Assembly (NCBI RefSeq): GCF_009208075.1
Contig: NZ_WFKJ01000023.1
Location: 1-45,051 of the forward strand
DNA from: Poseidonibacter ostreae
GTDB taxonomy: Bacteria > Campylobacterota > Campylobacteria > Campylobacterales > Arcobacteraceae
Direction: 5' to 3'
Length of the DNA: 45,051 nt
Each line of letters starts with the position of its first letter. The first letter of the stretch is position 1. This document shows, one piece after another, positions 3,110-14,841 of this stretch. A program made the position numbers and the translations under genes. Under the pieces are notes generated by a model. The model saw only the letters and a list, made by a program, of their open reading frames with translations. It did no database searches and was not told where the DNA came from.

Positions 3110-3166
3110 ATAAACTCTCACAAACTTTTTTAATACAAATTCAATTTATTTTTTAATCTTAAAACA

Positions 3167-3190
3167 TTAATGATATTTATTATCAATATT
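3167..3190. promoter_or_regulatory. Fur-box-like site, upstream copy
   Basis: The segment AATGATATTTATTATCAAT (3169-3187) has the ATGATA/TTATCA inverted pattern of Fur boxes (family consensus GATAATGATAATCATTATC). It lies about 65 bases upstream of the small peptide gene and about 35 bases from a second site. Confidence 0.5.
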
Positions 3191-3221
3191 AATTAATATT
3201 TAAGCTTCGCGCTGATAACAT

Positions 3222-3240
3222 TACAATAATGATTATCAAT
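3222..3240. promoter_or_regulatory. Promoter with overlapping Fur-box-like site
   Basis: A possible -10 (TACAAT, 3222-3227) is overlapped by AATAATGATTATCAAT (3225-3240), close to the Fur consensus. Fe2+-Fur bound here would block transcription of the peptide - DUF2325 - flavodoxin group. Inference from the motif and from the neighbouring fur and feoAB genes. Confidence 0.55.
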
Positions 3241-3253
3241 ACAAGGATTAAAT

Positions 3254-3316
3254 ATGTATCAAATAGAGATATCAAATAAAAAAGACTTAGTAAAACCAAC
3301 TGGTTGCACTTGCTAA
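3254..3316 (+). CDS. 20-residue peptide ending in Gly-Cys-Thr-Cys
   Basis: A very short reading frame, easily missed: ATG at 3254, stop TAA at 3314-3316, with AAGGAT (3243-3248) about 6 bases upstream. The peptide starts MYQIEISNKKDL and ends KPTGCTC. It lies directly downstream of a Fur-box-like promoter, and 14 bases before the next gene, which has its own AGGGAT site. Possible roles: a metal- or redox-sensing leader peptide, a small metal-binding protein, or the precursor of a modified peptide. No known family is recognised, and no leader-peptide attenuator hairpin is visible in the 14-base gap. Reality as a translated gene is probable, not certain. Confidence 0.5.
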   Translation: MYQIEISNKKDLVKPTGCTC

Positions 3317-3330
3317 GGCAGGGATAAATT

Positions 3331-3657
3331 ATGAGTATATTAATTATAGGTGGAGATAAAATCTCACACATTTCAACCATGTTAGAAAGTCTTGGAGCAA
3401 AAACAATAAATCACTGGGATGCTAGAAAAAAATCCTCTGCTCCTAGAAAAAAAGTTCCAATAGATACAGACTGTATTTTAATGCTTACTTCTTTTTTAAA
3501 TCATAATACTATGCTTAAATATAAAAATGAAGCCAAAAAGAAAAATATCCCTTTTGTATGTGCAAAAAGATCAGTATCTTGTGTATATGAAGAGTATGTA
3601 AAAGTTATGGGAATTAAAGACTGTAACGATTGCTACGCTAATTGTAAAGGAAAGTAG
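3331..3657 (+). CDS. DUF2325 domain protein
   Basis: A 108-residue protein beginning SILIIGGDKI, the glycine-rich beta-loop typical of DUF2325, with the later VPIDTDCILMLTSFLNHN and IPFVCAKRSV segments that also fit this family. The fold is thought to be Rossmann-like; the function is unknown. The C-terminus carries several cysteines (KDCNDCYANC), which could bind a metal, in keeping with the Cys-ended peptide just upstream. It sits in an apparent Fur-controlled operon (peptide - DUF2325 - unknown - flavodoxin). From memory, Campylobacter jejuni also has small hypothetical genes beside fldA (Cj1383c/Cj1384c), so the grouping may be conserved. Start ATG 3331 follows AGGGAT. Confidence 0.8.
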   Translation: MSILIIGGDKISHISTMLESLGAKTINHWDARKKSSAPRKKVPIDTDCILMLTSFLNHNTMLKYKNEAKKKNIPFVCAKRSVSCVYEEYVKVMGIKDCNDCYANCKGK

Positions 3658-3658
3658 G

Positions 3659-4420
3659 ATGAATTACAATGATTTTGTAGGATTTGATGGAAATAAAGAG
3701 TTGTTATCAAAAGATTTTGATACTTTTGATTCTGAGTTTAAACTAAGACAATTATTTTTACATCTTAGTAATTTTGTTTTAAATTCTGTATGTACATTTA
3801 GTAAATATGAGCAAAAATCTTTAGCAGTTTTACCTTTAAAAATTGCATTTGAATCAAAGATAAAAGTACTATTACCACAATGCAATATAAGAATAAAACC
3901 AAAAAATAAAGAGTTTAATATTTGTATAAATTCTACGAATATTATAAACAATTATACTTCTTCAAAAACAAAGAAGTTAATTATTGTAAATAGTAAAAAC
4001 TTATTACCAGCTGCAAAATTAATATCACACTGTTTTATTAATAATAAAATGCAACTATTAATAGATAAAAATTTACTTTTTCATGAATTTGTTTTAGAAA
4101 AATTAAGAAAATTACATAAAGACAAAGAAGTAAAAGATTTAGCTGATTCAATATCAATAAAACAAAAAGATGTTTGCGCATTAAAAATATATACTTCATG
4201 GAAAAATATCCAAAGAAAAAATCCAAATATACAAAATGAAGTAGATAATGCAATAAAAGTGATAAACAAAGGTGAATTTAATCAAGTATATTTGATTTAT
4301 CCAAAAGACAATGATTTTACAAGACATATACCTGTTTTTGTAGATGAATTAAAATATAAAACATATCAAATAAAAGCGATACCTTATTCTTTAAGGTCAA
4401 TAATTAGAAAAAATATATAG
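3659..4420 (+). CDS. Conserved hypothetical protein beside flavodoxin
   Basis: A 253-residue, Lys/Asn/Ile-rich soluble protein without signal peptide or membrane segments. The end holds a compact segment (QVYLIYPKDNDFTRHIPVFVDEL) that looks structured and may be the conserved core. The ATG at 3659 lies one base after the previous stop, with TAGGATG serving as a weak ribosome site, so translation is probably coupled. The next gene, flavodoxin, starts 8 bases after it. The position in a likely Fur-repressed operon suggests a role in iron limitation, perhaps with flavodoxin as electron donor. I do not recognise a characterised family. Confidence 0.75.
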   Translation: MNYNDFVGFDGNKELLSKDFDTFDSEFKLRQLFLHLSNFVLNSVCTFSKYEQKSLAVLPLKIAFESKIKVLLPQCNIRIKPKNKEFNICINSTNIINNYTSSKTKKLIIVNSKNLLPAAKLISHCFINNKMQLLIDKNLLFHEFVLEKLRKLHKDKEVKDLADSISIKQKDVCALKIYTSWKNIQRKNPNIQNEVDNAIKVINKGEFNQVYLIYPKDNDFTRHIPVFVDELKYKTYQIKAIPYSLRSIIRKNI

Positions 4421-4428
4421 GAGTTAAA

Positions 4429-4926
4429 ATGTCAACAGCATTATTTTATGGAAGTAGTACAGGAAATTCAGAAGAAATCGCAAGTAAAATTGCAAGTGAA
4501 TTAGGAGATATTGAGGTATTTGATTTAAGCCAAACTGATGTAGCTAAAATAAATGATTATAAAAGAGTTATTTTAGGTGGTTCTACTTGGGGTGAAGGAG
4601 AATTAAATGATGATTGGGATGAAGCTTGGGATTCATTTAAAACAATTAACTTAGTTGATAAAACCCTTGCTTTATTTGGTTTAGGAGATCAAGATGGTTA
4701 CCCAGATGATTTTTGTAATGCCTTAGGAATTATTTATGAACAAGTAAGTACAAGTGGTGCAAAGATTGTTGGATTTACATCAACTGAAGGTTATGAGTTT
4801 GATGATTCTAAAGCTGAAATAGATGGAAAATTTGTAGGTTTAGTAATTGATGAAGATAATCAAGATGATTTAACAGATGAAAGAATTAAAAATTGGGTTG
4901 AAAATATAAAAGAAGAAATTTTATAA
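4429..4926 (+). CDS. fldA: Flavodoxin
   Basis: Flavodoxin is an FMN electron carrier that replaces ferredoxin, especially when iron is scarce. The 165-residue protein has the FMN phosphate loop GSSTGNSEE (about residues 8-16) and the flavin-flanking segments GGSTWGEGELNDDW (50s loop) and GLGDQDGYPDDFCNA (90s loop). Length fits the long-chain flavodoxins that serve pyruvate/2-oxoglutarate:acceptor oxidoreductases in Campylobacterota. Start ATG 4429 follows TAGGAG. It is the last gene of the peptide - DUF2325 - unknown operon; a long hairpin follows. Fur control through the upstream boxes is likely. Confidence 0.95.
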   Translation: MSTALFYGSSTGNSEEIASKIASELGDIEVFDLSQTDVAKINDYKRVILGGSTWGEGELNDDWDEAWDSFKTINLVDKTLALFGLGDQDGYPDDFCNALGIIYEQVSTSGAKIVGFTSTEGYEFDDSKAEIDGKFVGLVIDEDNQDDLTDERIKNWVENIKEEIL

Positions 4927-4936
4927 AAGTATTTAA

Positions 4937-4966
4937 AATATATTAAGAGGAAACTCTTAATATATT
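4937..4966. terminator. Bidirectional hairpin between flavodoxin and fur
   Basis: A perfect 13-base-pair stem (4937-4949 with 4954-4966) closes a GAAA loop. It lies between the convergent ends of fldA and fur and overlaps the fur stop codon. The T-run is poor on both sides, so it may act mainly as a 3'-end stabilising hairpin. Confidence 0.6.
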
Positions 4967-5402
4967 ATTGACAATCCTCGCATGTTCCATATAATTGCAT
5001 AGAATGATTTGTAATTTTAAACTTATTTTTCTTTGCAATTCTTTCTTGTCTTTTTTCAATCTCATCATCTAAAAACTCTACTATTTTTCCACATTCAGTA
5101 CAAATCAAATGATCATGATGTGATTTTGCATTGCTTTCATATTTTTTACCATCACTACCAAAAGTAATTGATGTAATTAAATCTACTTCTTCTAAAAAAC
5201 TAAGTGCTCTATATACTGTAGCAATACCGATATTTGAATCAGTATGCTTTGTTTTTATTTCATTATAAACTTCTTCTGCACTTAAGTGATCTTCTGCATG
5301 AATTAAAATACTAAGTACAATTTCTCTTTGTTCAGTATATTTAAGACCTTTTTGTTTAACAATTTTTTTTAACTCTTCAATCGCTTCTTCACTATTAATC
5401 AT
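4965..5402 (-). CDS. fur: Ferric uptake regulator Fur
   Basis: A 145-residue metal-dependent repressor. An N-terminal winged helix (residues about 15-85, with NIGIATVYRALSFL as recognition region) precedes the dimerisation domain with the HHDH motif (95-98), the zinc cysteine pair C101/C104 and the C-terminal pair C141/C144. These features fit Fur; PerR and Zur cannot be wholly excluded from sequence. The Fur call is supported by its place between flavodoxin and feoAB. The gene is divergent from feoA, and the 177-base gap has several Fur-box-like sites, so autoregulation is likely. Confidence 0.9.
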   Translation of the reverse strand: MINSEEAIEELKKIVKQKGLKYTEQREIVLSILIHAEDHLSAEEVYNEIKTKHTDSNIGIATVYRALSFLEEVDLITSITFGSDGKKYESNAKSHHDHLICTECGKIVEFLDDEIEKRQERIAKKNKFKITNHSMQLYGTCEDCQ

Positions 5403-8312: not shown

Positions 8313-8535
8313 TTATATTCTCACTTTCACTCTCATCTACATCCATATACTTTAATAATAAATGTTTTATAGGAGCATAAAATGTTGTCATTGACACTAT
8401 AGCTACGATTAATTGAGTTATTTTAAAAAGAGAACTATCTTCATCTAAAATTATAAGAACTCCATAATAACTTAATAACAAAGAAAGTATAGCACAAATA
8501 ACAATACTTACAATCACAACAATATTATAATTCAT
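8305..8535 (-). CDS. Small two-helix membrane protein, unknown
   Basis: A 76-residue protein with hydrophobic helices at about residues 4-28 (IVVIVSIVICAILSLLLSYYG) and 38-54 (LIVAIVSMTTFYAPI) and an acidic tail (DVDESESEN). An in-frame ATG at 8559 would add 8 residues but has no ribosome site. The ATG at 8535 is preceded by GGAAAA 6 bases away and is preferred. It overlaps bpt by 11 bases and the next gene by 8, so translation is probably coupled. No known family recognised. Confidence 0.6.
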   Translation of the reverse strand: MNYNIVVIVSIVICAILSLLLSYYGVLIILDEDSSLFKITQLIVAIVSMTTFYAPIKHLLLKYMDVDESESENIND

Positions 8536-9262
8536 ATTTTTTCCATATAGTTTCTTCATCTAAATTAGGTCTATTCTCTAATATTTCAAAAGGTGTATAA
8601 GATTCTTTATAACCCATAGAAAAATGATCTTTTATCCAATAACCTAAATATATATAAGGAACATTCATCTCTTTTGCAATTTTTATTTGTGCTAAAATTG
8701 AAAATTTTCCTAATGATAAGTCTGCATAATCATGATCATAATAACAATAAATTGAAGAGATGGCATTAGGTAGAATATCAACTAAAGCAACACCAACTAA
8801 TTTATTATCTTTCATATATAAAAACTCTTTTGCATACTCTTCTTTAGATTCTACATAAGATTTTGAATATTCATTTGCATCAATTGGAGAGTAAGGCCAG
8901 TCTTTTTTTCTATTCATAAACTCATGATACTTATCATATAACTCTAAATGCTCCATTGTCATAGAAGGAGGTCTAATATAGAGTTTTGTATCTCTATTTT
9001 TATTTATAACTCTATTTTCAGATTTTGAAAACTTGTAGTTTGCAACATCAATTCGCATTGAAACACACTTTGTACAAGATCTACATTCTGGTACAAAATG
9101 CATTTTCCCAAAACGTCTCCAACCTCGCTCTAACATCTCTTGATAAGAACTAGGAGGACATGAGAACATATATTTATATCTAATATCAGATATTTTATCT
9201 TCAAAATAAGAGCAATCTCTTTGCTCTTCTAAAAACTCAATATCTTTGTTTAAAATATGCAT
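8525..9262 (-). CDS. bpt: Aspartate/glutamate leucyltransferase (bacterial ATE-like N-degron enzyme)
   Basis: A 245-residue member of the arginyl-tRNA--protein transferase (ATE) superfamily. Visible family features are an early DCSYF segment (Cys17), the cluster PECRSCTKCVSMR (Cys60, Cys63, Cys66), and the GNAT-like C-terminal part (YIYLGYWIKDHFSMGYKESYTPFEIL). Bacterial enzymes of this type (Bpt) transfer leucine from Leu-tRNA to proteins with N-terminal Asp or Glu and so mark them for ClpS-ClpAP. Aat, ClpS and ClpA are encoded within the next 9 kb. It follows trpA by 2 bases, so the two are probably co-transcribed. Specificity for leucine rather than arginine is taken from the family. Confidence 0.9.
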   Translation of the reverse strand: MHILNKDIEFLEEQRDCSYFEDKISDIRYKYMFSCPPSSYQEMLERGWRRFGKMHFVPECRSCTKCVSMRIDVANYKFSKSENRVINKNRDTKLYIRPPSMTMEHLELYDKYHEFMNRKKDWPYSPIDANEYSKSYVESKEEYAKEFLYMKDNKLVGVALVDILPNAISSIYCYYDHDYADLSLGKFSILAQIKIAKEMNVPYIYLGYWIKDHFSMGYKESYTPFEILENRPNLDEETIWKKYEL

Positions 9263-13122: not shown

Positions 13123-13869
13123 TTATTCTTCTCCACTTTCTCTTTCACCTTGGAACGTTGAAATTCCATAATCTAAGTTTGCAACAGATTTATATCCTAA
13201 GTCAAGCATAATTCTTTGACAATAAGCAGATCTACTACCACTTAAACAGTAAACAATAACAGGTGTATCTTTTTGGTCATCAACTCTCTCAAGTGCTTGG
13301 TAAAATGATGTTGTAGGAACTAAATAATCTGTTCCTTTAATTCTTGTACCTACCCATTCCATCCACTCTCTTGTATCAATAAGATTGAACTTTACAAAAC
13401 CTAAGTCTCGTGCTTCTAATAATGATTCTAGTTCTTGAGAATTTACTTCTTGTTTTAATAATAACTGCTCACACTCTTCTTTAGTAATTCCTCTTGAATG
13501 AGTTGCGATTGCATCATGTAAATCTTCTTCTTTTGCACTTTTATCTGCAAATTCAGGTGTACAGAAAATTCCACAGTGACAATTTCCAGTTTCTGGAATC
13601 TCTTTTTCAAGAGCTGGTTTACATGGACATAACCTATTATCAGCTGCTTTTTGTTCCTCTTTAATCTCACCAATAACCATAAAACATGGACAATACCTTT
13701 TTCCATATATCATTTTATTTCTAGCAAGTCCCATTTGAATTGATTCATTTACTTCATCATTTGGATTATATGCAAAGTTAAAATTTTTAACAACTTTATC
13801 TGTAAATTGTTTTGTTAATTCAAATTCAGTTTGAAACTCTTCACTATTTGTATCTATTTTTTTTATCAT
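13123..13869 (-). CDS. Ferredoxin:thioredoxin reductase catalytic subunit fused to rhodanese
   Basis: A 248-residue two-domain protein. Residues 1-115 match the catalytic (beta) subunit of ferredoxin:thioredoxin reductase: CPC (60-62), CPC (81-83), CHC (97-99) and a further Cys103. In the known enzyme such cysteines bind a 4Fe-4S cluster and form the redox-active disulfide that reduces thioredoxin. Residues about 150-245 form a rhodanese domain with NLIDTREW and the active-site loop CLSGSRS (catalytic Cys208), which carries persulfide sulfur. No FTR variable (alpha) subunit is nearby, as in other bacterial FTR-like proteins. The fusion suggests electron delivery from ferredoxin to a persulfide or disulfide. 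Cytoplasmic, single gene. Confidence 0.88.
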   Translation of the reverse strand: MIKKIDTNSEEFQTEFELTKQFTDKVVKNFNFAYNPNDEVNESIQMGLARNKMIYGKRYCPCFMVIGEIKEEQKAADNRLCPCKPALEKEIPETGNCHCGIFCTPEFADKSAKEEDLHDAIATHSRGITKEECEQLLLKQEVNSQELESLLEARDLGFVKFNLIDTREWMEWVGTRIKGTDYLVPTTSFYQALERVDDQKDTPVIVYCLSGSRSAYCQRIMLDLGYKSVANLDYGISTFQGERESGEE

Positions 13870-14172: not shown

Positions 14173-14841
14173 TTAGAATTCTTTTAAATTCTCAGATGAT
14201 TTTTTCACACTTAAAATAAACTCATTTCTATCTATTGTTTTTGCACCCAAAGATAATAAATGTGGAGTTGGTATTTGACAATCTATAAAAGAAAAACCTT
14301 TTTCTTTTAATCTTTGTACTAAAAAATATAATGCAACTTTTGAAGCATCAGTTTTTTTAGCAAACATAGATTCCCCACAAAAAATATTTCCTATATTAAT
14401 ACCATATCCACCACCAACTAATTCACCATTGAAATAAGCTTCAAAAGAGTGTGCAAAGCCCATTTCATGTAGTTTAGTATATGCCTCAATTAATTCATCT
14501 TGAATCCATGTACCTTTTTGATTCTCTCTATTTATATTTTTACACTCTTTCATAACTTGAGTAAAATTTGTATCAAACTTAATTTCAAATATGTTTTTAT
14601 CTATAACTTTCCTAAGACTTTTTGATATTTTAAAATCTTCAAAATCTAATATACATCTAGGATTTGGACTCCACCACAAAATTGGATCAGATTCGTTATA
14701 CCATGGGAATATTCCATTTAAATATGCAGTCATAATACGAGAAGGATTTAAATCACCACCATAAGCTAAAAGGCCTTTATCATCAGCATAAATTGGGTTT
14801 GGAAAAATATATGAGTTTTTATCTAAAGGGTAGATATTCAA
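14173..14841 (-). CDS. aat: Leucyl/phenylalanyl-tRNA--protein transferase
   Basis: Aat adds Leu or Phe from aminoacyl-tRNA to N-terminal Lys or Arg and thereby creates a destabilising N-terminus recognised by ClpS. The 222-residue protein has the family signatures GLLAYGGDLNPSRIMTAY, GIFPWYNESDPILWWSPNPR and ELVGGGYGINIGNIFCGESMF. Start ATG 14841 gives the usual short N-terminus. Located 1 kb from clpSA and 5 kb from bpt, it completes an N-degron gene set. The upstream cytochrome gene is separated by a hairpin terminator, so aat probably has its own promoter in the 73-base gap. Confidence 0.96.
   Translation of the reverse strand: MNIYPLDKNSYIFPNPIYADDKGLLAYGGDLNPSRIMTAYLNGIFPWYNESDPILWWSPNPRCILDFEDFKISKSLRKVIDKNIFEIKFDTNFTQVMKECKNINRENQKGTWIQDELIEAYTKLHEMGFAHSFEAYFNGELVGGGYGINIGNIFCGESMFAKKTDASKVALYFLVQRLKEKGFSFIDCQIPTPHLLSLGAKTIDRNEFILSVKKSSENLKEF

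Follow-up and report, generated by a model that had tools for sequence, protein, structure and literature searches.

uof, the leader ORF of E. coli fur, is a short ORF preceding an iron-linked gene, and the bufferins and other MNIO-modified peptides are metal-linked small gene products that contain Cys. In Campylobacter, amino-acid leader peptides are encoded by short ORFs before a biosynthetic gene (PMC3847290). The C. jejuni pair Cj1384c-Cj1383c includes a DUF2325 protein, Cj1384, that is Fur-repressed and iron-regulated (PMC4491227, PMC3815106); it has seven Cys residues and was the most induced C. jejuni gene under light stress in one study, at 352-fold (PMC9426514). These data place DUF2325 in Fur-controlled iron and oxidative-stress defence (PMC4491227, PMC3815106, PMC9426514).

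The locus considered here is part of a 45,051 nt stretch from Poseidonibacter ostreae (contig NZ_WFKJ01000023.1; "the window" below). It resembles Cj1384c-Cj1383c in combining DUF2325 with a Cj1383c-like protein under Fur control (PMC4491227, PMC3815106), and also shares the flavodoxin gene that accompanies these genes in Campylobacter loci. Unlike the Campylobacter loci, it encodes a micropeptide between the Fur box and DUF2325. As with uof and the amino-acid leaders, this is a short ORF before a gene, but its sequence is strongly selected and it also occurs behind, or without, the neighboring gene. With bufferins it has in common small size, Cys content, and a link to metal; in contrast to them it is just 20 aa long, with no MNIO neighbor seen and the MNIO gene missing in most of the carriers tested. 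No described family was found to fit it in Pfam, the PDB, or the literature as searched: no Pfam model matched the 20 residues, the PDB chains gave nothing up to E 10, and the papers searched for leader peptides of Arcobacter or for micropeptides linked to Fur did not mention it. It is of interest because it is conserved, probably induced by loss of iron, set in a fixed gene context, and open to testing at a single residue, the C-terminal Cys; it also offers a handle on DUF2325.

The micropeptide locus

The micropeptide ORF (MYQIEISNKKDLVKPTGCTC) is on the forward strand at 3254-3316, with 20 codons between an ATG at 3254 and a TAA at 3314-3316, a C-terminal KPTGCTC, and a ribosome site, AAGGA, with six bases between it and the ATG. 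Its annotation is based on its occurrence in the Arcobacteraceae, on pN/pS ratios, and on homologs in a second family, f16, all considered below. After a gap of 14 nt comes the gene for the DUF2325 protein (3331-3657, forward; PF10087, E 4e-17), a Cj1384 homolog with a Cys-rich tail ending KDCNDCYANCKGK. Coordinates and sequence thus agree with the original prediction, both in its ribosome site, ATG, stop, and 20-residue peptide ending KPTGCTC and in its placement of this ORF between a Fur-like promoter and a DUF2325 gene with a Cys-rich end. An AF2 model of the DUF2325 protein (pLDDT 83.6) has a common alpha/beta fold with the Cys-rich tail disordered. Comparison of this model with the PDB yielded no informative match (Foldseek best E 0.013; VIA best Z 9.5), and no function was gained from it beyond the common alpha/beta arrangement. 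Downstream, also in forward orientation, are genes for the Cj1383c-like protein (3659-4420) and a flavodoxin (4429-4926; PF00258, E 3e-26), followed on the reverse strand by a Fur-family regulator (4965-5402; PF01475, E 2e-42). The Cj1383c-like protein, of 253 aa and without a Pfam family, is an undescribed flavodoxin-operon partner, located between DUF2325 and flavodoxin; it has homologs before fldA in Campylobacter loci and in f16.

Across all 45 kb of the window, the three best matches to the 19-bp Fur consensus, each 15/19, begin at positions 3166, 3172, and 3225, all at the micropeptide locus. The first two overlap, so these represent two Fur-box sites rather than three: an upstream one (GATATTTATTATCAATATT, 3172-3190, forward), with a comparable position in relatives, and a downstream one (AATAATGATTATCAATACA, 3225-3243, forward), kept in relatives. 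They flank a probable promoter, TTTAAG-17-TACAAT (3199-3227, forward), which was read from the sequence and is visible in aligned relatives, although a consensus promoter scan did not call it. Both sites are 5' of the micropeptide ORF, and with two conserved Fur boxes at its promoter the micropeptide has the arrangement of a Fur-regulated small protein. It would be the first gene of a Fur-controlled operon encoding the micropeptide, DUF2325, the Cj1383c-like protein, and flavodoxin; loss of iron-loaded Fur would permit transcription of this operon, and the micropeptide would then be made beside DUF2325.

Conservation in the Arcobacteraceae

A profile (A1) built from 16 micropeptides was used on 104 Arcobacteraceae genomes. 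It identified the micropeptide in 42 of them, from 9 of 20 genera, and all 42 copies contain GCTC and are located 1 to 20 nt 5' of DUF2325. The same reading frame recurs 5' of DUF2325 in relatives, and the frame is kept, not broken, in close ones. In two relatives within the window's own genus it runs four codons beyond GCTC, which is retained, so the chain does not invariably end in Cys. Among aligned copies the N-terminus is variable and the Cys-containing C-terminus fixed. Codons vary synonymously: for 36 distinct Arcobacteraceae sequences, pN/pS comes to 0.22 when 13 codons are counted and to 0.12 for the last eight, a pattern that bears out the proposal of a real peptide. GCTC shows no amino-acid change at all among the 36; note however that the rows for pN/pS were chosen by GCTC, and the A1 profile was made from GCTC peptides, so that copies lacking GCTC could escape, as that at locus L087 did. 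Judged from these comparisons, the micropeptide ORF is a genuine conserved gene, with a recurrence far beyond chance, and its last eight codons are under strong amino-acid selection.

Mapped on a tree of DUF2325, a short protein with many unresolved forks, micropeptide presence requires six changes, vs. 31 in shuffles. The micropeptide is old and has been lost at times. In A. cryaerophilus, A. vitoriensis, and A. vandammei, DUF2325 is present but the micropeptide is missing, and several Aliarcobacter loci of this kind have a Fur box immediately 5' of DUF2325. It is also absent from the Campylobacter and Helicobacter DUF2325 loci inspected. Since DUF2325 is found without the micropeptide in Aliarcobacter lineages and in Campylobacter, the micropeptide must be dispensable for DUF2325 function. 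Loci L087 (Arcobacter sp. LC1) and L023 have a likely degenerate frame without Cys (MKKVKVIKKFYLSKSKGVTYLRAWL), whose stop overlaps the DUF2325 start.

Homologs in other families

Two genomes of family f16, probably the Sulfurimonadaceae, were matched by the A1 profile (E 1e-4), and onward searches brought the number with a micropeptide homolog to 16 of 228. Weak profile matches inside large proteins were treated as chance. The f16 consensus is MFELNNKxxIKxFTGKPC, with the pattern M-F-E-L-N-N-K...[ST]-G-[KR]-[PA]-C, in which the Cys is the last residue of the frame. pN/pS is 0.35 overall and 0.13 for GxxC, so by this measure the f16 micropeptides are likewise under amino-acid selection. A single genome of another family, f5, has MLKIKARDDLIKGNGCTC 5' of DUF2325, with GCTC present.

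Positions in f16 are different. At seven loci (L166-L169, L171, L173, and L179) the start of the micropeptide overlaps the DUF2325 stop by 8 or 13 nt, usually 8, and at L170 it is 12 nt 3' of DUF2325; at L209 the order is DUF2325, micropeptide, Cj1383c-like protein, flavodoxin. Four f16 carriers (G357, G318, G475, and G556) have no PF10087 (DUF2325) match anywhere in the genome and nevertheless retain the micropeptide behind a Fur box, with sites of only 13/19 in G475.

In an alignment of 14 rows, the Arcobacteraceae and f16 groups share no residues other than Met1, Gly(-4), and the C-terminal Cys. The f16 homologs have one Cys each, in the terminal tail [ST]G[KR][PA]C, and conservation does not extend to the first Cys of Cys-Thr-Cys. 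Cys-Thr-Cys is a feature of the Arcobacteraceae (and f5), and the family core is Gly(-4) plus the C-terminal Cys.

Leader peptide or diffusible product

The original prediction included a metal-sensing leader among its possibilities. As a cis-acting leader (uORF), the micropeptide would tune DUF2325, which begins 1 to 20 nt downstream, through its translation or through stalling at its Cys codons or stop. Its ORF is the first on the transcript, with a short gap to DUF2325; conservation is anchored at the stop with a variable N-terminus, as in arrest peptides; and the degenerate L087 frame overlaps the start of DUF2325. However, this 5' position on the same transcript is a property of the Arcobacteraceae and not of the family overall, and f16 copies located 3' of DUF2325 or alone in genomes without DUF2325 argue strongly against a leader acting in cis. 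DUF2325 also carries a ribosome site of its own, Aliarcobacter loci without the micropeptide may have the Fur box directly before DUF2325, and variants that read beyond GCTC still keep it. RNA structure over the micropeptide region is not conserved across the Arcobacteraceae (alifold energy -0.29, vs. -0.05 +/- 0.31 in shuffles), and an attenuator or riboswitch spanning the micropeptide, including a switch of the transcription-attenuation type, was rejected on these grounds. A cis-acting leader is therefore considered unlikely. Overall, the parts of the original reading that stand are a Fur-linked real peptide, its conserved Cys end, and its fixed place in the Arcobacteraceae, while the metal-sensing leader does not.

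Because the micropeptide is kept behind DUF2325 or without it, irrespective of position, a trans-acting product is favored. On balance, the micropeptide is probably a Fur-controlled product of iron starvation, diffusible and cytosolic rather than chiefly a leader in cis, that acts in trans through its C-terminal thiol, with DUF2325 as the favored partner. DUF2325 would have this role where it is present, and other partners are possible.

The C-terminal tail

Since the two groups share just Met1, Gly(-4), and the terminal Cys, the leading candidate for the working part is the C-terminal thiol; that part would comprise the tail [ST]-G-x-x-Cys-COOH. Most likely this tail presents one reactive thiol and a free carboxylate to a protein partner, or two thiols in the Cys-Thr-Cys of the Arcobacteraceae. 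It could serve as a ligand for thiol, redox, or metal hand-over in an oxidative-stress and iron-sparing response. From conservation alone, a thiol role for the tail is the most likely one.

Alternatively, Fe, Cu, or Zn could be bound by the Cys-Thr-Cys pair itself, making the micropeptide a small metal chelator or chaperone; this would be in keeping with Fur control and with the presence of GCTC in the f5 copy and in each of the 42 copies found in the Arcobacteraceae. But the f16 homologs, with their single Cys (G[KR][PA]C), cannot share a Cys-x-Cys function, and since the first Cys is not conserved there, the family core does not consist of a Cys-x-Cys metal site. The small metal chaperone of the original prediction keeps its conserved GCTC in the Arcobacteraceae but is weakened in having Cys-x-Cys as its essence; a Cys-x-Cys site may be an Arcobacteraceae elaboration, and as an account of the micropeptide it is very unlikely.

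Heterocyclisation typically takes place at sites such as Gly-Cys and Thr-Cys, and the variable N-terminus and fixed Cys-bearing C-terminus resemble the leader and core of a RiPP precursor. Together with iron control, this could suggest a modified peptide, for example a Cys-modified metal binder made under iron starvation, with its enzyme encoded elsewhere. That no maturation enzyme is found nearby, as had been noted from the start, holds for the Pfam-scanned neighbors (about 1-1.2 kb, 2.8-5.4 kb, and ten genes at 7.9-19.1 kb), none of which is a maturase. The MNIO enzyme (PF05114), the only maturase family searched for, is encoded in 8 of 19 tested carriers, including the window's genome, where it is on another contig (G000 contig C135:15372-16151), and is missing from the other 11, including all five from f16. 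It was rejected as a general maturase of the micropeptide, and because most of the carriers tested are without it, maturation of the bufferin type is unlikely. A modified-peptide precursor is an improbable reading.

The micropeptide tail also bears a striking likeness to the C-terminal arm of the sulfur carrier DsrC (DsrC/TusE), LPKPTGCV at the protein end (1yx3, 1sau, 2v4j), compared with L[VI]KPTGCTC, with L.KPTGC in both. The micropeptide, however, has neither the PF04358 fold with penultimate Cys of DsrC/TusE, being 20 aa long with no Pfam match, nor KPTGC in its f16 homologs. No PF04358 (DsrC) gene was found in a search of the window's genome. A DsrC arm was dropped as the main reading, given f16 homologs without L.KPTGC and a genome without DsrC, and the shared residues may reflect convergence or chance.

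Twin-hairpin RNA downstream of the f16 micropeptide

The f16 relatives also contribute a candidate Fur-controlled structured RNA. Most f16 loci have, 3' of the micropeptide, an AAGGAG and a tiny ORF followed by a pair of hairpins, both of which have a 5' bulge around AUGA[AU]G; the RNA was found at L164, L165, L167, L168, L170-L174, L176, L179, and L207. At L167, L168, L169, L171, L173, and L179 the AAGGAG (imperfect in L167) is some 15-30 nt past the micropeptide stop, and the ORF after it has two codons (e.g., ATG-AGA-TAA) and is kept across f16 genomes. In nine sequences, some of which were used to draw the structure, 91% of cells pair, with 16 two-sided pair changes vs. 6.8 in shuffles, and sliding the pairing partner abolishes the pairing. 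The second loop displays CCUCCU in L168, L173, and L179, with UCUCCU stretches downstream in others, and a terminator-like stem often follows. No Rfam family matched the RNA, and it was not found in the 45 kb window.

Two further loci have the RNA in other settings. L213 (G302) has a Fur box and, directly behind it, a short ORF (MKERLKQD) and the twin hairpins, without DUF2325 or the micropeptide. L215, the second copy in G351, has a Fur box, a truncated DUF2325 frame, an out-of-frame micropeptide remnant (KRFTGRAC), and the RNA; it reads as a decayed second copy of the DUF2325-micropeptide-RNA unit. The twin-hairpin RNA is possibly a Fur-controlled sRNA or dual-function RNA. A broader proposal, that DUF2325, the micropeptide, and the RNA form a modular Fur-controlled unit for iron starvation whose parts are shuffled and lost independently, the stand-alone f16 transcript being a dual-function RNA that both codes for a Cys-tailed micropeptide and regulates mRNAs via CCUCCU/UCUCCU, is conceivable but doubtful.

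Other genes in the window

Elsewhere in the window, a single protein encoded at 13123-13869 combines a ferredoxin-thioredoxin reductase catalytic chain domain with a rhodanese domain. Both aminoacyl-tRNA-protein transferases, the ATE family and the Leu/Phe transferase, are encoded within a span of ~6 kb (8525-9262 and 14173-14841).
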